Shown here one piece after another: positions 2,700 through 21,700 of a DNA stretch of 33,888 nucleotides. Made by a program: the position numbers and the translations under genes. Under the pieces are notes generated by a model. It saw only the letters and a list, made by a program, of their open reading frames with translations, was not told the DNA's origin and did not search any database. How positions within the stretch are numbered: the first letter of the stretch is position 1; each line of letters starts with the position of its first letter. The DNA is taken from IMG/VR virus record IMGVR_UViG_3300025769_000431, positions 1-33,888 of that record; one strand, given 5' to 3'. Source of the DNA: a virus.

Positions 2700-3434
2700 A
2701 TGCTGCATTACCACGGGACACCATGCGGCGGAACACGGCAAGATGTCGCCCGATTCTTGAAAGGGCGGCACGCCTTCATCTCGTTTTTCCGGCCAGAAGA
2801 CATCGGTACGGCTGCAGAGGTCTGCCAGTCGTTTGCGGTAGACAACGGCGCTTTCAGTGCCTGGATGGCCGGGCAGGCTGTCACAACGTGGCGACCGTAT
2901 TACGGCTTCTGCGAGGCGTTGCACCGACATCCGGCGTTCGATTGGGCTGTGATCCCGGATGTTATCGACGGCAGCGAAGAAGAGAATGACGCGCTGCTCG
3001 ACGAATGGCCGAGTCACATAGAAGGCGTGCCGGTGTGGCATATGCACGAATCACTGGAGCGGCTTGACAGGCTGTGCACTTGGCCGAGACTTGCAATCGG
3101 CAGTTCCGGCGAATGGCCGAATCCGGGCACAGATAAATGGTGGGCACGGATGGCCGAGGCGATGCGTGTGATCTGCGACGATGCGGGCCGTCCACGGTGC
3201 AAGCTGCATGGGCTGCGAATGCTTGACCCGGCGATCTTTCAGCAGTTGCCATTCGCGTCGGCGGATTCCACCAACGCGGTCCGAAATTCGAGCAACTATG
3301 GACGCTTCGGCCAGTACGTGCCGCCGAATGCGAGCACACGCATGGCGATCATCGCGGAGCGGATTGAGGCACATCAATCGGCGGCAGTGTGGTGTGGGAT
3401 TGAGAAGCCCGAGCAACTGCGACTGTTTGCGTAG
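2700..3434 (+). CDS. TGT/DpdA-superfamily transglycosylase-like protein, 244 aa
   Basis: The product looks like the TIM-barrel tRNA-guanine transglycosylase superfamily, closest in style to phage DpdA-like deazapurine DNA-modification enzymes. Markers are VDNGAFSAW (about 48-56), DWAVIPDVIDG (about 80-90), the strand VPVWHMH, AIGSSGEW, CKLHGLRML, and ASADSTNAVRN near the C-terminus. These match the order DSGAF, Q/PV, GVGS, LHGFG, ADS in DpdA-like proteins. The known family exchanges a guanine base for a deazaguanine in tRNA or DNA; the actual substrate here is unknown. No zinc-binding cysteine cluster is evident. The ATG lies only 3 bases after the GTT box of site B, with no Shine-Dalgarno. 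The TAG stop lies inside the left box of site C, so the gene fills one cassette. Confidence 0.65.
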   Translation: MLHYHGTPCGGTRQDVARFLKGRHAFISFFRPEDIGTAAEVCQSFAVDNGAFSAWMAGQAVTTWRPYYGFCEALHRHPAFDWAVIPDVIDGSEEENDALLDEWPSHIEGVPVWHMHESLERLDRLCTWPRLAIGSSGEWPNPGTDKWWARMAEAMRVICDDAGRPRCKLHGLRMLDPAIFQQLPFASADSTNAVRNSSNYGRFGQYVPPNASTRMAIIAERIEAHQSAAVWCGIEKPEQLRLFA

Positions 3435-3520
3435 AACGTTTAATATCACGGGGTTGCGGCAAGTTGCTTTCCATTCAGAACACGCGAGACCCGCAACTCC
3501 CGTGCATGTTTTGGTTATCC
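3431..3520. repeat. attC-like recombination site C
   Basis: The left box GTAGAAC (3431-3437) is the exact complement of the GTTCTAC box that opens this cassette at 2690-2696. A 9-base spacer follows. CACGGG (3447-3452) pairs with CCCGTG (3499-3504), and GTTGCGG (3453-3459) pairs with CCGCAAC (3491-3497). An unpaired T sits at 3498. A 9-base spacer leads to the right box GTTATCC (3514-3520). The central loop is about 31 nt. The geometry is the same as in site B although the arm sequences differ. Confidence 0.8.
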
Positions 3521-3527
3521 TGCATTT

Positions 3528-3578
3528 TCTAAGCCTGATGAGTCCGTGGGGACGAAACGCTTTCTAGCGTCGCTTAGG
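3528..3578 (+). ncRNA. Type I hammerhead ribozyme
   Basis: All core elements are present in order. CTGATGA lies at 3535-3541. Stem II is GTCC/GGAC (3542-3545 and 3550-3553) with loop GTGG. GAAA lies at 3554-3557. Stem III is ACGCT/AGCGT (3557-3561 and 3566-3570) with loop TTCT, followed by the cleavage nucleotide C3571. Stem I is CTAAGC (3529-3534) with GCTTAG (3572-3577), extended by a T3528/G3578 wobble. Stem I is the open helix, hence type I. Known chemistry predicts self-cleavage between C3571 and G3572, leaving a 3' product with a 5'-OH that begins GCTTAGG. It begins only 8 bases after the GTT box of site C. Confidence 0.93.
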
Positions 3579-3696
3579 CCACTAGCTGGGTTGTGAGTGG
3601 ACAAGGCCGCCCAGCCTCAAGGTCATTCTTCGGAGTGGGTTTGAGGCGAAGACCGGACGGGGCGGATGTGGTAGCCGGATACGAAGCCCAGCACCC
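3572..3696 (+). ncRNA. Structured RNA between ribozyme and tRNA-like element
   Basis: This would be the 5' part of the RNA released by the hammerhead. Helices visible by eye are CCACT/AGTGG (3579-3583 and 3596-3600) and CCGCCC/GGGCGG (3607-3612 and 3660-3665). The latter encloses GCCTCAA/TTGAGGC (3614-3620 and 3641-3647), which encloses CATTC/GAGTG (3624-3628 and 3633-3637) capped by a TTCG tetraloop. GCTGGG in the first hairpin loop (3585-3590) can pair with CCCAGC at 3687-3692, a possible pseudoknot, or with CCCAGC at 3610-3615. No open frame with a start signal fills it. The class of RNA is not recognised. Confidence 0.7.
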
Positions 3697-3769
3697 GCGA
3701 TTGTGATGGTAATGGCAGCCATAGCGAGGACGTATGCTCGCCGTGTCGGTTCGACTCCGACCAATCGCT
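3697..3769 (+). tRNA. tRNA-like cloverleaf with 8-nt anticodon loop
   Basis: The 7-bp acceptor stem is GCGATTG/CAATCGC (3697-3703 and 3762-3768), with T3769 as discriminator. The D arm is ATGG/CCAT (3706-3709 and 3719-3722) with GG in its loop. The anticodon stem is GCGAG/CTCGC (3724-3728 and 3737-3741). The variable region has 3 bases. The T arm is GTCGG/CCGAC with the canonical loop TTCGACT (3750-3756). All stems are perfect. The anticodon loop GACGTATG has 8 bases and lacks U33, so no anticodon can be assigned. No CCA is encoded. It could be a non-decoding tRNA mimic, a target of RNase P or CCA-adding enzyme, or a degenerate tRNA; the intact stems argue against decay. Confidence 0.7.
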
Positions 3770-3775
3770 TTGTCA

Positions 3776-3818
3776 GGATAACTCTGAATTATACGGATTC
3801 CGAAATATAGAGTTATCT
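3776..3818. repeat. Minimal attC-like site D
   Basis: GGATAAC (3776-3782) is the exact complement of the GTTATCC box at 3514-3520 that begins this cassette. GATAACTCT (3777-3785) and AGAGTTATC (3809-3817) form a perfect 9-bp inverted repeat. The centre CGGATTCCG gives only a 3-bp hairpin, followed by a 9-base spacer before GTTATCT (3812-3818). The bulged T and long GC stem of sites A-C are missing. It therefore looks like a shortened or boundary version. It has no T-run and is AT-rich, so a terminator is unlikely. Confidence 0.5.
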
Positions 3819-3854
3819 GGATTCCACATAATACCCTGAAGACAGGTAAGCATG

Positions 3855-3893
3855 GCAGATGGCGATGCTGGATTGATCTAATTTGCCGTCTGC
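3855..3893. promoter_or_regulatory. Inverted repeat before the small coiled-coil gene
   Basis: GCAGATGGC (3855-3863) and GCCGTCTGC (3885-3893) pair over 9 positions with one wobble around a 21-base loop, 41 bases before the ATG at 3934. It may be an mRNA hairpin or an operator. No GTT or AAC boxes flank it, so it is not counted as an attC-like site. Confidence 0.35.
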
Positions 3894-3933
3894 TGGAGCT
3901 GATCGCGTGACGATACACTCTCTGAGGTGAACC

Positions 3934-4143
3934 ATGAGCGAATCAACTGACCGTGAGCTGAGGTTGATATCGCAACTGAACAGTTCGCGTGACGCTGTTG
4001 AGTTTCAGCTTTCGAACAATCAGATGTCGTCAACGCAGCGGGAGTTTCTCACTTCGAGGTTGACGGATATTGATTTGCAGCTCAAGCACGCTCGGCGGCG
4101 ACTGGCTCGTGAAGAAGAGCGGCAGACGCAAGGCCCGTCTTGA
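3934..4143 (+). CDS. Small coiled-coil hypothetical protein, 69 aa
   Basis: The ATG at 3934 follows GAGGTGA with good spacing. The product is short, charged and helical (SESTDRELRLISQLNSSRD, then LTDIDLQLKHARRRLAREEE) and reads as one coiled coil. No function is recognised. Its 3' end overlaps the 3' end of the convergent recombinase gene by 62 bases, so transcripts of the two genes would be antisense to each other there. Confidence 0.6.
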   Translation: MSESTDRELRLISQLNSSRDAVEFQLSNNQMSSTQREFLTSRLTDIDLQLKHARRRLAREEERQTQGPS

Positions 4144-4843
4144 TCATGTCTTTGACTTTCTGAGGGTGCCACGGTCCTTTTCGGAGCTGGCGATCGTTGC
4201 ATTCCATCTGCTCGCAGATGGCTCGGTACGAGAATCCTTCGTCGCGAAGTAGTAGGACTTCGCTGATCATTCGGATTTCATCCGGGTTGTCGACGATCCG
4301 GTTGGCGTCGTTCGGGTCGATCATCTTTCCGTACGGGACAAGATTCTTGTGCGTCATTCGCTCGCCGTTTTTCTGTCGATGCTGCATCATCTGGCTCGTC
4401 CGTTCCGACGTAAGGTCGGCTTCGAATTCTGCGTTGGAGAGCATGAACCGGACGAAGTGTCTGCCCATTGCGGTCGAGACGTTGATTGAGTTGCCGCCCT
4501 GATCGGCGAAGTGGATAGTGATTCCTTTCGCGTCCCAATGGTCGAGCATATCGAGTCCGTCACGCATGTTTCGGAAGAGTCGGTCGATCTTCGACGTGAC
4601 GATGTGGGTGACGTTCTCGGGCAGTTCTCGCAGGTGCTTTCCACCCGGTCGCTCAAAGAGCGGCGTGGTCCGAGCTGACTCGAAAGTGTCGGAGATTTCT
4701 TCGGCGACTTCGAAGTCTCGCATCTGGCAGTACCGACGACAGTTCTTCAACTGCAGTTCGATGGTCTCGCCGTCTTCGACGCGGTTTCGCTTCTTGACTT
4801 TTGGGCGTGGAGAGAATCGCGCGTAGAGCAGGGCACGTTCCAT
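4082..4843 (-). CDS. Serine recombinase, short form (253 aa)
   Basis: This is a site-specific DNA recombinase of the serine (resolvase/invertase) family and the likely phage integrase. The N-terminal catalytic domain shows LLYARFSPR with the presumed nucleophile Ser11, SKIDRLFRN (the D-R-x-x-R motif), and AMGRHF plus SNAEFEADLTSERT, typical of the family's long helix. Residues from about 175 on (NPDEIRMISEVLLLRDEGFSYRAI and on to GPWHPQKVKDMI) match the recombinase domain that follows it. At 253 aa it stops there. It lacks the zinc-ribbon and coiled-coil end of large serine integrases (usually 450 aa or more), so it is a compact or truncated type. The start has AGGAA about 10 bases upstream on the minus strand. 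It faces away from the phage late operon. Confidence 0.88.
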   Translation of the reverse strand: MERALLYARFSPRPKVKKRNRVEDGETIELQLKNCRRYCQMRDFEVAEEISDTFESARTTPLFERPGGKHLRELPENVTHIVTSKIDRLFRNMRDGLDMLDHWDAKGITIHFADQGGNSINVSTAMGRHFVRFMLSNAEFEADLTSERTSQMMQHRQKNGERMTHKNLVPYGKMIDPNDANRIVDNPDEIRMISEVLLLRDEGFSYRAICEQMECNDRQLRKGPWHPQKVKDMIKTGLASAALLHEPVAAERA

Positions 4844-15092: not shown

Positions 15093-16121
15093 ATGTCTGA
15101 TGTCATCCTTGCCCATGCTTCTTCGCCTTACGTTTCGGCGTATCCTTGGAGTTCTGGGTTTGGGACAAAGTATTCCAATCCGGCAACGCTGCCTGGTAGT
15201 ACATGCTATGGGGTTCAGTTTTCTTCTGACGGTGCTGATATTGTTGTTGCCCATGCTTCTTCGCCTTATGTTTCGGCGTACCCCTGGAGTTCTGGTTTTG
15301 GGACAAAGTATTCTGATCCGGCAACGACGCCAACGGGTCTGGGTCGAGGGGTAGGATTTGCTCCAGATGGTTCTGCCGTTGCTGTTGCTCATAGCACTTC
15401 GCCTTACGTTTCGGCGTATCCCTGGAGTTCCGGGTTTGGGACAAAGTATTCCGATCCAGCAACGCTGCCATCTGGTATAGGACGAGGGGTGAGCTTTAAT
15501 CCGGGAAGCTCGGCGATTGCTGTTGCACATTCTTCTTCGCCTGTTATTTCGGCATATCCCTGGAGTTCCGGGTTTGGGACAAAGTATTCCGATCCGGCAA
15601 CGCTGCCGACCAGTACATGCTATGGAGTTGAGTTTTCATCTGACGGTGCTGATATTGTTGTTGCCCATACGGGAGGCGGGAACATTTCGGCATATCCCTG
15701 GAGTTCCGGGTTTGGGACAAAGTATTCTGATCCAGCAACGACGCCAACGGGTTTCTCTAATAGCGCTACCTTTTCTTCTGACGATGTTGATGTTGTTGTT
15801 GCCCATACCACTTCGCCTTATGTTTCGGCGTATCCTTGGAGTTCCGGTTTTGGGACAAAGTATTCCGATCCGGCAACGCTGCCAACGGGCAATTCAAACA
15901 AGGTCACTTTCACGTCGGATGATTCAGATGTCATCCTTGCCCATAACACTTCGCCTTACGTTTCGGCGTATCCTTGGAGTTCTGGGTTTGGGACAAAGTA
16001 TTCCAATCCGGCAACGCTGCCGGCCAGTCATGCGTTCGGGGTATCCATTACCGATGAAGGTGCGGCCCCCTCCGTTAATGTGCCTGTATTCTGGCATCAT
16101 TATCAGTTGTTGAGGTGTTAA
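15093..16121 (+). CDS. Seven-bladed beta-propeller protein, 342 aa
   Basis: The ATG at 15093 follows GAGGTGG. After 13 residues the protein is seven units of exactly 46 residues, each opening with VSAYPWSSGFGTKYS (or ISAYPW...) and followed by (D/N)PATLP and a variable strand, then a strand like ADIVVAHASSPY. Seven WD40-like blades with an N-terminal strand that completes the last blade (velcro closure) predict a closed propeller. The variable residues lie mostly in the segment after PAT(L/T)P. Such a protein could be a fibre-associated or adhesin-like surface part of the virion. The C-terminal 20 residues (VNVPVFWHHYQLLRC) are outside the repeat. Confidence 0.8.
   Translation: MSDVILAHASSPYVSAYPWSSGFGTKYSNPATLPGSTCYGVQFSSDGADIVVAHASSPYVSAYPWSSGFGTKYSDPATTPTGLGRGVGFAPDGSAVAVAHSTSPYVSAYPWSSGFGTKYSDPATLPSGIGRGVSFNPGSSAIAVAHSSSPVISAYPWSSGFGTKYSDPATLPTSTCYGVEFSSDGADIVVAHTGGGNISAYPWSSGFGTKYSDPATTPTGFSNSATFSSDDVDVVVAHTTSPYVSAYPWSSGFGTKYSDPATLPTGNSNKVTFTSDDSDVILAHNTSPYVSAYPWSSGFGTKYSNPATLPASHAFGVSITDEGAAPSVNVPVFWHHYQLLRC
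15132..16097 (+). repeat. Seven exact-length 138-bp tandem repeats
   Basis: Units begin at 15132, 15270, 15408, 15546, 15684, 15822 and 15960, each 138 bp with no insertion or deletion. About 45 bases of each unit (coding AYPWSSGFGTKYS and flanks) are nearly identical at the DNA level. The remaining part varies more. This points to recent duplication or gene conversion within the propeller gene. Confidence 0.9.
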
Positions 16122-16122
16122 G

Positions 16123-18465
16123 ATGCACTTGAGAAATGGCACTGCAAATCAATCGGTCCTGCTTGGGCCATTCCTTGACGAGACCGATGGGAAAACGCCA
16201 GAAACCGGATTGACGATTGCCAATACTGATATTCGCCTTTCGAAGAACGGCGGCAATATGGCTGCCAAGAATTCTGGCGGCGGCACGCATGACGAGGCTG
16301 GTTACTATACGATCACGCTTGATGGCACCGACACTGGAACTGTTGGCAGGTTGCAGGTTTCATGTCAGGTTTCAGGGGCACTTCCAGTGTTCATGGAATT
16401 TGAGGTCTTGACGATTGCCAAGTACGACGAGATGTATGGTTCTTCGGCTGCTGCATTGCCGACGGCCGCTGCAATTGCCGATGCGGTCTGGGACGAGGTA
16501 CAATCTGGTCATGTTTCGGCAGGCAGTTTCGGCGAGATAGCGACAGAGATTGCAGCAATCCTTGTTGATACGAACTCGCTTAATGACACAAAGATTCCAC
16601 AGACGCTGAACCTGACGGCCAGTGGCAATATCGGCATTGATTGGGCGAATGTTGAGAACCCGTCTTCGGCCGTTGACCTGTCTGCGACTGACATTCGGTT
16701 GTGTGACACGATCACGACATACACCGGAAACACTGTGCAGACCGGTGATTCTTATGCTCTGGCAAACGGGGCGTCCGGGTTCGTGGCGAGTAAAGCGGTC
16801 GTCGATGCGATTCTTGTCGACACGGCAGTAATCGGCGCGGCCGGTGCAGGTTTGACGGCAATCCCTTGGAATGCCGCCTGGGATGCTGAAGTCCAATCTG
16901 AGGTTCAGGATGCGATTGAGGTTAATCATCTCGATCATCTTCTGGCTGTTGATTATGACCCGGCGAGCAAGCCTGGTGTTTCGACAGCGTTGCTGAATGA
17001 ACTGATCGGTGATGATGGCGGCGTCTCTCAATTCACAGCGAATGCTCTAGAGCTTGGTCCGTCTGGCGGCGGTGGCGGCGGTGGCGGTGACGCTACGGAA
17101 GCCAATCAGACAACGATCATTGCACACCTGACGGACATTAAAGGCACTTCATTCGTCAAGGACACGCACAGTCTGACTGACATTCTCGCTGACACTGCGG
17201 AGATCGGGGCTGCAGGGGCTGGGTTGACTGATCTGGGTGGTATGTCAACAGGGATGAAGGCCGAAGTCGAGAGCGAAGTGAATGACGCTTTGGTTGCGAT
17301 TCATCTCGATCATCTTCTGGCAGTGGATTACGACCCGGCTTCGAAGCCAGGGACTTCCACGGCACTGTTGAACGAATTGATTGGTGATGACGGCGGTGTC
17401 TCGCAATTTACAGCGAACGCTCTGGAGAACGCGACGAGCGCGACAGCGGCGGCGATTGCCGATGCCGTCTGGGATGAGCTGCAGGCCGGCCATGTGACTG
17501 CCGGTTCATTTGGTGAGATAGCGACGGAGATCGCTTCGATCCTTGTTGACACAGCCGAGATCGGCGCGGCCGGTGCTGGTTTGACGGCGGTTCCTTGGAA
17601 TGCCTCGTGGGATGCTGAGGTTCAGTCAGAATGCAACGACGCTCTGGTTGCGATTCATCTCGATCATTTGCTGGCTGTGGATTACGACCCGGCATCGAAG
17701 CCGGGAACATCGACATCTCTTTTGAATGAGATATTCGAGAGCGACGGCGGCATTTCCCGTTTCACGGCGAATGCTCTGGAGAACGCTCCGGGCGCGAGTG
17801 CGGCAGCGATTGCTGATGCGGTCTGGGATGAGGCTCAATCTGGTCATGTTTCGGCAGGCAGTTTCGGTGAGATAGCGACGGAGATCGCTTCGATCCTTGT
17901 TGACACAGCCGAGATAGGCGCAGCCGGAGCAGGCTTGACGGCAGTCCCGTGGAATGCCTCGTGGGATGCTGAGGTTCAGAGTGAAGTGAATGACGCTCTG
18001 GTTGCGTTCAATGTAATGGCGACGACTGATCTGCCGTCGAACTTTGCAGACCTTGCAATCACGGCTTCAACTGGCCGGGTCGATGTTTCACTCATTGAAG
18101 GCGTTGACGCGACGGATCAGATTCGGGATGCGATCGTTGATGATGCGACTCGGATTGATGCGTCTGCCTTGAATACCCTGAGCGGTCACGATCCGGGTGC
18201 AACGCTTTCGAGCCTGACCGCAGCTCAGGTGAATGCCGAAGTGGTTGACGCACTCGATACAGACACGTATGCCGAACTTGGCGCTGTGCCGGCAGCGACG
18301 GCGAGTCTGGCAGATAAGATTGCCTGGCTGTTCATGCTGGCACGCAACAAGGTGACTCAGACGGCGACGACAGTCGTGGTGCGAAACGATGCGGATTCAG
18401 GGAACGTGGCGACGTCAACGGTTTCGGACGATGGGACGACGGCAACCAGAGGAGAATTCTCCTGA
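16123..18465 (+). CDS. Repetitive tail-fibre-like protein, 780 aa
   Basis: The ATG at 16123 lies 1 base after the previous stop. Residues 1-95 form a globular N-terminal domain (LDETDGKTPETGLTIANTDI, RLSKNGG, HDEAGYYTITLDGTDTGTVG) seen in many phage fibre or baseplate proteins. The middle is built from repeated modules: AAIADAVWDE...GHVSAGSFGE, ILVDTAEIGAAGAGLT, VPWNASWDAEVQSE, then HLDHLLAVDYDPASKPGTST and FTANALE. Modules recur about four times in full or in part. A poly-Gly hinge lies near residue 315. The C-terminus looks like a tip (ATTVVVRNDADSGNVATSTV). A trimeric fibre shaft is likely; the role is inferred. Confidence 0.7.
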   Translation: MHLRNGTANQSVLLGPFLDETDGKTPETGLTIANTDIRLSKNGGNMAAKNSGGGTHDEAGYYTITLDGTDTGTVGRLQVSCQVSGALPVFMEFEVLTIAKYDEMYGSSAAALPTAAAIADAVWDEVQSGHVSAGSFGEIATEIAAILVDTNSLNDTKIPQTLNLTASGNIGIDWANVENPSSAVDLSATDIRLCDTITTYTGNTVQTGDSYALANGASGFVASKAVVDAILVDTAVIGAAGAGLTAIPWNAAWDAEVQSEVQDAIEVNHLDHLLAVDYDPASKPGVSTALLNELIGDDGGVSQFTANALELGPSGGGGGGGGDATEANQTTIIAHLTDIKGTSFVKDTHSLTDILADTAEIGAAGAGLTDLGGMSTGMKAEVESEVNDALVAIHLDHLLAVDYDPASKPGTSTALLNELIGDDGGVSQFTANALENATSATAAAIADAVWDELQAGHVTAGSFGEIATEIASILVDTAEIGAAGAGLTAVPWNASWDAEVQSECNDALVAIHLDHLLAVDYDPASKPGTSTSLLNEIFESDGGISRFTANALENAPGASAAAIADAVWDEAQSGHVSAGSFGEIATEIASILVDTAEIGAAGAGLTAVPWNASWDAEVQSEVNDALVAFNVMATTDLPSNFADLAITASTGRVDVSLIEGVDATDQIRDAIVDDATRIDASALNTLSGHDPGATLSSLTAAQVNAEVVDALDTDTYAELGAVPAATASLADKIAWLFMLARNKVTQTATTVVVRNDADSGNVATSTVSDDGTTATRGEFS

Positions 18466-18709: not shown

Positions 18710-21700
18710 ATGACTGAATCAACGCTTTCAATTTCCCGATCAGACCTTGACCGTCGCATCGGGATGCGTCTTGGCTACGGCAACAAGGTCTCGGCATACA
18801 ATCCAGAGCAGTTAGAAACGATTGGATTGATTCGCCAGGATGCTTTGTCGCGATTCTATTTCCCGACGGTTGCAGGCGAGTCGCGTTGTCACGAGTGGTC
18901 GTTCCTGCGGATTGAGCAGTCGATCAACCTGACTGCGGGGGTTGCGACTTACTCGCTGCCGGATAGTTCGGCAGGCGAACTGGAATCGCTGCAGGTCACC
19001 TCGGCTTCTGGGAAATCGCTGATTGAGATCGTCACGCAGGCGAGCCTCACGCAGTCTCGCGGTTCAGAATCGGCGTCAAATGGTGTGCCGCTTTACGGTG
19101 CCGTCCAGGTGGTTGGTCACACGACGTCCGCTTCTGCCGGGCAGCGTTGGCAAGTTGAGCTTTATCCGACTCCTGATGCGGCTTACGTGCTGGCATACAC
19201 GTCTTCTGTTCTGCCAGACGGGTTGTCGGACACTCTGGATTATTATCCACTCGGCAGCGCGATACACCAGCAGGCACTGATCGAGGCGGCATTGTCAGTT
19301 GCCGTCGAGTATCTGCATCCTGACATGCCGCCTGAGCAGAACACGCATCAGCAGCGGTTCGAGGCATTGCTGGGATCGGCCGTTGAACGCGATCAGAAAT
19401 TCAAAAACAGTTCAACGCCTCAAGCGGTTACGGCTCCAGTAGATGGCACTTTCGACTGGTATCGGCGCGAGATCGCCGGGAAGCGGTTCAATAAGTGGAA
19501 CCTGCATCAACTCACTCACGGCGAGAAGGCGACGGTTGAGCGGTTGCTCACTTCTGGCCTGAATCGACTCTACTTTCCACTGGTCCCAGGTGAGTCTCGT
19601 TTTCACGAATGGTCGTTCCTGCGGATTGAGGATTCGATTAGCCTGACATCAGGTACGGCGACGTACACGCTGGCAGACAAGTTTGGCGGGAAGATCAATT
19701 CGCTTCAGGTGACATCGTCGAGTGGCAAGTCTCGAATCGATATGGTCACTCGGGAAGAGATGACGCAGTCTCGCGGATCGGAAGCGGCGTCAAACGGCGT
19801 CCCTCGATACGCCTCACTTCAGGTCGACACTCACACGACGTCTGCGACCGACGAGCAACGATGGGAAATCGAGTTCTACCCGACGCCCGATGCGTCTTAC
19901 ACGGTGAAGTATTCCTCGGCGGTTTTGCCGGGCGAGATTGACACGACGCATTCGTACTATCCGTTGGGTTCGGAAATCCACCAGCAGGCTTTGTTGGAGT
20001 CCGTGTTGGCTGTTGCGGTAGCCGACAAGAATCCTGATGCGCCGGCTGAGCAGAATCCACACGAACAGCGATTTGGGGGCTTGCTGGCAGCAGCGATTGC
20101 TCAGGATGTTGATTTCAAAAAGGCTGAGGCTCTTCAGTCAATCACGGCTCCAGCGACTGGCACGTTCGACTGGTATCGCCGAGAGATTGCCGGTGTTGCT
20201 TTCGACAAGTGGAATCTGTTTCAACTCTCGCACAACGAAGAAGCGACCGTTGAGCGATTGCTTACATCCGGTCTGAATCAACTTTACTTCCCGACGAATC
20301 CGGCGAATGGTGAGTCGCATGAATGGTCGTTCCTGCAGATTGAAAAGACACTGACGACGAGCAGTGGGACTTCAACCTATGCTCTGCCTGCATCGTTCGG
20401 CGGTCGTATTCGAGACTTGCAGGTCACGTCGGCAAGCGGCAAGCCTTTGATTCAGGTGGTGAGTCAGGACAAGTTGACTCAGTCTCGGGGATCGGAAGCG
20501 GCATCCAATGGCGTTCCAAACTACGCAGCGGTGCAGACTACCGGACACACAACGTCGGCGACTGATGAGCAACGATGGGAGATCGAGTTCTATCCGACTC
20601 CCGACGACACCTACACAATTGCGTACACGTCGGCGGTTCTTCCAGGCGAGATCGACACAACACACACGTATTATCCGCTTGGCACTGAGGTTCACCAGCA
20701 GGCACTTCGCGAGTCTGTTCTTTCGCAGGCTTATGCGTTCAGGAATCCTACGTCGCCGGCCGAGGAAAATCAGCATCAGCAACGGTTCGAGAAGTTGCTG
20801 GCCGGTGCGATCGATCGTGATGTTAAGCTGAAAGAAGAGTCTTCGCTTCAGGCGATCACGGCTCCGGCGACCGGCACTTTCGACTGGTATCGGCGCGAGA
20901 TTGCTGGGCGACGGTTCAATAAGTGGAACCTGCATCAGCTTACCCATAGCGAAGAGGCGACAGTCGAGCGTCTGCTGATCTACGGCCTGAATCGGTTCTA
21001 TTTCCCCCTTTCTCCGGGTGAGAATCGATTCCATGAGTGGTCGTTCCTGCGGATTCAGAAAACTTTCACGACTGTCGCCAGTACGTCAACGTACACGCTG
21101 CCTGATAGTTTTGGTGGAAAACTGCAGTATCTTCAGATTACCTCAGAGTCTGGCAATCGCCTGATTGAAATCGTCTCGCACGAAGAGATGGCTCAGTCTC
21201 GGGGATCGGAAGCAGCATCCAATGGTGTTCCGCTTTATGCGGCTTTGCAGGTCGATACTCACGTTACTTCAGCGTCCGACGAACAGCGATGGGAAATTGA
21301 GCTTTACCCGACTCCCGACGATTCCTACACGATTGCCTACTCAGCGGCGGTGCTGCCTGGCGAAGTGGATGCGGTTCACAGTTACTACCCGCTTGGCACC
21401 GAGATTCACCAGCAGGCTCTGTTGGAATCGATTCTGTCCGTCACCGAAGCTGATAAGAATCCTGATGCGCCGGCTGAGCAAAACGCGAACGAGCAGCGAT
21501 TCGAAAAACTGCTGGCTGCAGCAATATCGCAGGATGTTGAGTTTAAGAAGGCTGCTGCGACTCAGGCTGTGACCGCTCCAGCGACTGGCACGTTTGATTG
21601 GTTCCGTCGTGAGATTGCTGGGAAGATGTTCGACAAGTGGAATCTTTTCCAGTTGTCGCACAGCGAAAAGGCGACTGTCGAGAAGCTGATGATTTCAGCT

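Follow-up and report, generated by a model that had tools for sequence, protein, structure and literature searches.

The locus and its hammerhead ribozyme

The stretch of DNA analyzed here (the window) is the 33,888-base record of an uncultured virus. Between a gene resembling that of queuine tRNA-ribosyltransferase (TGT), which ends at 3434, and a gene for a serine recombinase, it carries an RNA unit on the + strand. The unit comprises a type I hammerhead ribozyme (3528–3578), a 121-nucleotide (nt) RNA with two pseudoknots (3572–3692) that starts at the predicted cleavage site, and a tRNA-like cloverleaf (3697–3768).

The hammerhead is predicted to cut between C3571 and G3572. Helix I pairs 3528–3534 with 3572–3578 (7 base pairs, bp) and is open; helix II pairs 3542–3545 with 3550–3553 (4 bp) and helix III 3557–3560 with 3567–3570 (4 bp). 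The catalytic core is complete, with CUGAUGA at 3535–3541, GAAA at 3554–3557, T3570 as U16.1 and C3571 as H17. In a permissive search of the 551 bases from 3400 to 3950, the Rfam model Hammerhead_1 matched 3529–3577 with 28.2 bits and an E value of 7.6e-5. The curated gathering score is 34, which is why the Rfam scan at default thresholds returned no match. The G001 homologue presented below misses the threshold likewise, with 28.4 bits. The low score is the shortfall of a short motif in which every core base is present. A strict hammerhead descriptor was matched once in the window and in none of 300 dinucleotide-preserving shuffles of it. The full core, the three helices, the E value and the shuffles together uphold the complete type I hammerhead of the original prediction, which had been made from the sequence alone. 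The architecture of the ribozyme also supports the proposal that it would free the 5' end of a non-coding RNA.

A conserved double-pseudoknot RNA

Relatives were sought by scanning viral contigs for the hammerhead core, with no condition on a tRNA; the family has at least the members given here. Among the matches listed, one contig (L054) aligned over the hammerhead and into the downstream RNA, with 81% identity over 95 nt. The entire RNA is carried by record G001 (51 kb; loci L307 and L321), with the homologue at L307:1538–1663. A search with a pattern built from these two sequences then yielded a third member, which is more diverged, at L326:168–295 on the − strand of record G009 (31 kb). 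In both records the RNA stands directly behind a hammerhead, as in the window. A further contig (L044, 35 kb) shows no difference from the window in the 9.4 kb compared and is not independent.

Among the loci compared, the hammerhead and the RNA are the sole DNA shared by the three phages. The terminases of the window and of G001 belong to different families (phrog_5989 and phrog_2, respectively). Both homologues retain every core base of the hammerhead while its helices change: helix II goes from GUCC/GGAC to GAGUU/AACUC, helices II and III are wholly changed in G009, and one A-U pair of helix I is swapped for C-G among the homologues.

Other searches added no member. The terminase route led to two contigs with 55% identity (L166 and L167), which have neither the hammerhead nor the RNA. 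An exact scan of the viral contigs for the 3' motif returned the two known family contigs only, the remaining matches being without a hammerhead unit. BLAST searches of 50,697 phage records and 72,556 plasmid records gave short chance matches and no homologue. Three bacterial pattern matches were rejected for lack of a hammerhead, and so were three weak matches of the covariance model in 399 bacterial genomes of one phylum.

The RNA (family A) folds into three helices, P1 (3579–3583/3596–3600), P2 (3607–3612/3660–3665) and P3 (3614–3620/3641–3647), and two pseudoknots, PK1 (3653–3656/3675–3678) and PK2 (3585–3591/3686–3692). Downstream of the cut, the order is the same in all three members. 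The strand of helix I is followed by GG(C)C, P1, a loop containing the 5' strand of PK2, TGTGA and the return strand of P1. Then come GACAAGGCC leading into P2, the P3 hairpin, AAGA, the 5' strand of PK1 and the return strand of P2, and finally GTGGTAG, the 3' strand of PK1, ATACGAAG and the 3' strand of PK2. The unpaired blocks TGTGA, ACAAGG, AAGAC, GTGGTAG and ATACGAAG are invariant.

The pairing is kept through changes of sequence. PK2 is GCTGGGT/GCCCAGC, CCGGCGC/GCGCCGG or AAGAGGC/GCCTCTT; PK1 is CCGG/CCGG, CCGA/TCGG or CTGG/CCAG; and P2 is CCGCCC/GGGCGG, CCAGCCAT/ATGGCTGG or CCCGCC/GGCGGG. In a MAFFT alignment of the three members, the five helices, both pseudoknots included, make 33 pairs and 92.8% of the cells are paired. 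Both sides have changed in 14 of the 33 pairs, compared with a mean of 5.3 in shuffled alignments, none of 500 reaching 14. When the partners were slid by one to three columns as a control, only 1–3 pairs had both sides altered. As the alignment places P1 of the window and P2 of G001 one column out of register, these figures slightly understate the support. The members score 120–136 bits with the covariance model of the family.

Family A is thus a conserved double-pseudoknot RNA. No Rfam covariance model of any family matched 3579–3692 up to an E value of 10, and family A is a previously uncatalogued viral RNA, absent from Rfam. A structured RNA of about 125 nt with nested helices had been foreseen at this place; the structure is confirmed by compensatory changes, and the simple nested fold gives way to one with two pseudoknots supported by the homologues. 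An Rfam search, proposed at the same time, yielded the hammerhead and a match of tRNA-Sec type, both below default thresholds, and nothing for the pseudoknotted RNA. An antisense open reading frame (ORF) at 3574–3918 has no Pfam match and was rejected as a gene, the differences among the homologues being indels of single bases and compensatory changes in paired positions; this agrees with the initial view that the unit holds no credible protein gene.

The neighbouring genes differ among the three phages. The RNA lies by the TGT-like gene and the tRNA-like element in the window, by a terminase small-subunit gene in G001, and downstream of a gene for an Enc34-type single-stranded DNA-binding protein in G009, where the hammerhead begins directly after the stop codon of that gene. 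A self-contained RNA is therefore favoured over the leader of one gene. The 3' neighbour varies too. It is the tRNA-like element, after 4 nt, in the window and a hairpin in G009; G001 has no tRNA there, and a sub-threshold match to the twister-sister ribozyme lies about 195 nt 3' of the RNA (L321:5384–5454), just before the terminase small subunit. The conserved module therefore consists of the hammerhead and the double pseudoknot, with the tRNA-like element as a local 3' partner. The terminase small-subunit frame of G001 (L321:5410–6108) encodes, after a short match to Terminase_2, a GIY-YIG endonuclease domain.

A leader acting in cis is one alternative. The hammerhead cut and the double pseudoknot would then equip a downstream phage mRNA with a protected 5' end or with a switch that binds a ligand. 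The cut of many viral hammerheads falls shortly before a start codon, and the RNA of G001 is followed downstream by terminase small-subunit genes. Compact, conserved pseudoknots are also a typical feature of riboswitches and exonuclease-resistant RNAs. Besides the changing gene surroundings, what follows the RNA in the window speaks against a leader: the tRNA-like element within 4 nt, then an ORF of 69 residues without Pfam match and the recombinase gene on the opposite strand. This explanation is considered rather unlikely.

It is doubtful that the double pseudoknot is itself a second self-cleaving ribozyme, an idea that would account for the conserved unpaired bases and for the place beside the hammerhead. 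The RNA has its five invariant unpaired blocks and adjoins the hammerhead and, in G001, the twister-sister-like ribozyme, and bacterial self-cleaving ribozymes show enrichment in each other's vicinity (PMC10085705). However, conservation for catalysis cannot be told from recent divergence with as few as three sequences; a cut is already provided by the hammerhead, and the RNA fits none of the known ribozyme models.

The tRNA-like element and the RNA 3' end

All 21 stem pairs of the cloverleaf (3697–3768) are of Watson–Crick type, with 7 of 7 in the acceptor, 4 of 4 in the D, 5 of 5 in the anticodon and 5 of 5 in the T stem; the T loop is TTCGACT. Within the permissively searched 3400–3950 segment, the Rfam model of tRNA-Sec matched the cloverleaf with 26.8 bits (E 0.0039). 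A strict cloverleaf descriptor was matched once in the window and in none of 300 dinucleotide-preserving shuffles. The element departs from canonical tRNAs by an anticodon loop of 8 instead of 7 nt (GACGTATG) that lacks U33, by U14 in place of A14, by a variable loop of 3 nt, and by the absence of an encoded CCA. ARAGORN called no tRNA at 3697–3768. Given the 8-nt loop without U33 and the negative ARAGORN result, the element is described as tRNA-like and not as a decoding tRNA; the intact cloverleaf of the original prediction stands as to its stems and T loop. It looks like a tRNA-shaped substrate for processing enzymes.

The 3' strand of PK2 is separated from the 5' end of the tRNA-like element by the spacer ACCC (3693–3696), and ribonuclease P (RNase P) is predicted to cut between 3696 and 3697. 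The tRNA-like element would probably just help to trim the end of the RNA. As it is missing from both homologues, this role rests on analogy with other phage loci, in which the spacing favours the view that tRNA-processing enzymes would set the 3' end. A conserved unit made of hammerhead and tRNA-like element was rejected, the true homologues being without the latter. A scan for a hammerhead followed by a T loop returned mostly ordinary tRNAs and unrelated hammerhead–tRNA pairs.

In two further groups among the hammerhead loci compared, the loop of the first hairpin pairs with the 3' end of the RNA. The second group (L117:2179–2305 and L040:1428–1558) has the same helix order as the RNA of the window. 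Its loop-to-3'-end pseudoknot is GGCGGG/CCCGCC in one member and GAAGGG/CCCTTC in the other, with GTCGGC/GCCGAC and GTGTGC/GCACAC for PK1. Only the helix order is common, and the covariance model of the window RNA (R1) misses both loci, which were rejected as sequence members of family A. The third group has a ACCTTNNGGTGT hairpin just after the hammerhead (L035:622–740, L045:454–572, L147:7494, L156 on the − strand, L155 on the − strand and L090:5406) and lies mostly in phage tRNA clusters. Its loop sequence GTGGT, ATGGT or CGGT covaries with ACCAC, ACCAT or ACCG at the 3' end, which in several of these loci immediately precedes a tRNA.

The distance from the 3' strand of this pairing to a standard tRNA is 6 nt in L040, 8 in L035, 9 in L156 and 6 in L045, compared with 4 nt to the tRNA-like element in the window. 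Such short spacing would be expected if the RNase P cut at the 5' end of the tRNA also made the 3' end of the RNA. It is not universal, no tRNA being that close in L117, L147 and L155.

Other arrangements of hammerheads and tRNAs were observed. Type I hammerheads are predicted to cut exactly at the first base of a phage tRNA, or 1 nt before it, in L046:2314 (+, second copy), L072:8394 (+), L074:6478 and 6628 (+) and L130 (−, 3315); their helix I shares the 5' strand of the acceptor stem, and the tRNA 5' ends would be made by the hammerhead. In L005:2695, L026, L029/L033 and L010, hammerhead-like motifs with 41–71 nt inserted in the loop of helix III are directly followed by a tRNA or tRNA-like element. 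In L002:178–394/L024, L013 and L022, hammerheads are found with tRNA-like cloverleaves, uncalled by ARAGORN, within about 80–130 nt downstream.

The tRNA-like element could also be unrelated to the RNA, as a scar from a phage attachment site within a tRNA gene of the host. Phage attachment sites often contain tRNA pieces, the serine recombinase gene is about 310 bp away, and short T-arm and acceptor matches to tRNA-Leu genes of large phages were found. However, a full cloverleaf is present and not merely a 3' half, and the recombinase is a small resolvase-type enzyme of 253 residues (4082–4843, − strand; Pfam PF00239, Resolvase N-terminal domain, E 6.9e-26), with weak XisF/CcrB similarity (NCBIfam). 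A scar is an unlikely origin.

A perfect 9-bp inverted repeat brackets the unit and forms the closing helix of the fold predicted for the transcript. Its left arm (GTTATCCTG, 3514–3522) pairs with the right arm (CAGGATAAC, 3775–3783) in the minimum-energy fold, and the right arm also starts a local hairpin, GATAACTCT...AGAGTTATC (3778–3817). On the other side, between the TGT-like gene and the hammerhead, lies a long hairpin, CACGGGGTTGCGG...CCGCAACTCCCGTG followed by CATGTTTT (3444–3507), taken initially for an attC-like site. It is possibly the end of the upstream transcript; a terminator scan called none there. Exactly complementary end boxes had been noted, which is correct, and had been read as the borders of a mobile integron-type cassette. 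Such cassettes are bounded by GTTRRRY, attC lying between RYYYAAC and GTTRRRY (PMC3053210). The cassette is scarcely credible and was discarded, because GTTATCC violates GTTRRRY and GGATAAC violates RYYYAAC, no integron integrase or tyrosine recombinase was found by Pfam among the window proteins scanned, and both homologues lack GTT/AAC boxes around the hammerhead unit as well as the tRNA-like element. The sole RYYYAAC...GTTRRRY pair of the window is at 19410, far from the unit. The absence of boxes in the homologues had been named in advance as grounds for abandoning the cassette, and it leaves the RNA itself untouched.

The TGT-like gene (2700–3434, + strand; PHROGs phrog_887, E 2e-72) is directly 5' of the RNA unit and outside it, and could be involved in deazaguanine modification of DNA or RNA. 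The window also encodes a terminase large subunit (Pfam/PHROGs). Two large ORFs contain tandem-like internal repeats (15109–16033 and 16802–18010; offset of about 138 bp, 76% identity), which came to light as self-matches in alignments of the window with near-identical contigs.

Proposed processing and known systems

The locus is proposed, with slightly more confidence than doubt, to encode a phage non-coding RNA with a hammerhead-freed 5' end and a replaceable 3' element, the freed RNA being the functional product. The RNA would be made within a longer + strand transcript. The hammerhead would cut at 3571/3572, leaving a 5'-hydroxyl end, and the 121 nt from 3572 to 3692 would fold into the compact double pseudoknot. 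As the first hairpin loop pairs with the 3' end, both ends of the RNA would be tied together. An adjoining processing element would then set the 3' end. In the window, host RNase P would cut at the 5' end of the tRNA-like element (3697), giving an RNA of about 125 nt; the counterparts may be the twister-sister-like ribozyme about 195 nt downstream in G001 and the hairpin in G009. The freed RNA most likely would be the functional product, acting in trans or as a stable RNA. The hammerhead architecture, the conserved double-pseudoknot fold and the exchange of the 3' neighbour are observed.

Several points weigh against this proposal. Only three members of family A are known, and the tRNA-like element is missing from two of them. 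The twister-sister match of G001 reaches 27.6 bits for a gathering score of 34, with parts of the consensus missing. Among 52 unselected viral hammerheads, a same-strand tRNA lies within 600 nt downstream in 8 cases and upstream in 7; there is no directional enrichment, so proximity alone is not evidence and the argument rests on the spacing. Transcription, cleavage, trimming by RNase P and action in trans are inferred.

A broader proposal is more tentative and is put forward as a possibility. The three groups (window/G001/G009; L040/L117; L035/L045/L156 and relatives) may belong to a wide phage class, with at least three groups, of ribozyme-released RNAs in which a hammerhead is followed by a 5' hairpin loop locked to the 3' end and often by a tRNA or tRNA-like element. 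Hammerhead and RNase P would excise a closed, trans-acting RNA serving as scaffold or catalyst.

With integron cassettes, the unit has in common a mobile-looking organization between inverted repeats; it differs by the lack of core-site consensus, integrase and array. The twister-sister ribozyme (RF02681), imperfectly matched near the RNA of G001, is absent from the window. The guide-RNA scaffold of TnpB in RAGATH-18/IS607 also has two pseudoknots, one of which links the loop of a 5' hairpin with the 3' flank, and RAGATH RNAs were discovered in the vicinity of genes that are associated with hammerheads and twisters (PMC11061315). The two-pseudoknot layout is alike and a serine recombinase gene is near the window RNA, a resemblance of topology only, whereas the 3' tail in the window has no guide-like feature and runs into the tRNA-like element. 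RAGATH-18 was not among the Rfam matches up to an E value of 10, nor was TnpB found by Pfam among the window proteins scanned. Text searches of the literature other than subscription papers and bioRxiv brought up no account of a pseudoknotted phage RNA led by a hammerhead.

The theta ribozymes, which resemble that of hepatitis delta virus, lie beside phage tRNAs, and the processing of tRNA 3' ends is their proposed role (PMC10879173). As in the window, a phage genome here combines a self-cleaving ribozyme with a tRNA element. In contrast, the hammerhead of the window stands 125 nt ahead of its non-decoding tRNA-like element and would define the 5' end of another RNA. This suggests that phages may use tRNAs, even non-decoding tRNA-like elements, as cutting signals for the 3' ends of other RNAs.

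The hammerheads of phages and prophages (RF00163; PMC3088659) share with that of the window the type I fold, the full catalytic core, and an intergenic location in a phage genome. Their purpose is largely unexplained. Whereas the 2011 survey, in the part of its text considered here, describes the prophage genes that hammerheads flank and no such RNA, the cut in the window would release a concrete candidate product: an RNA with conserved pseudoknots that starts right at the cleavage site, is common to unrelated phages and is provided with a replaceable 3' processing element.
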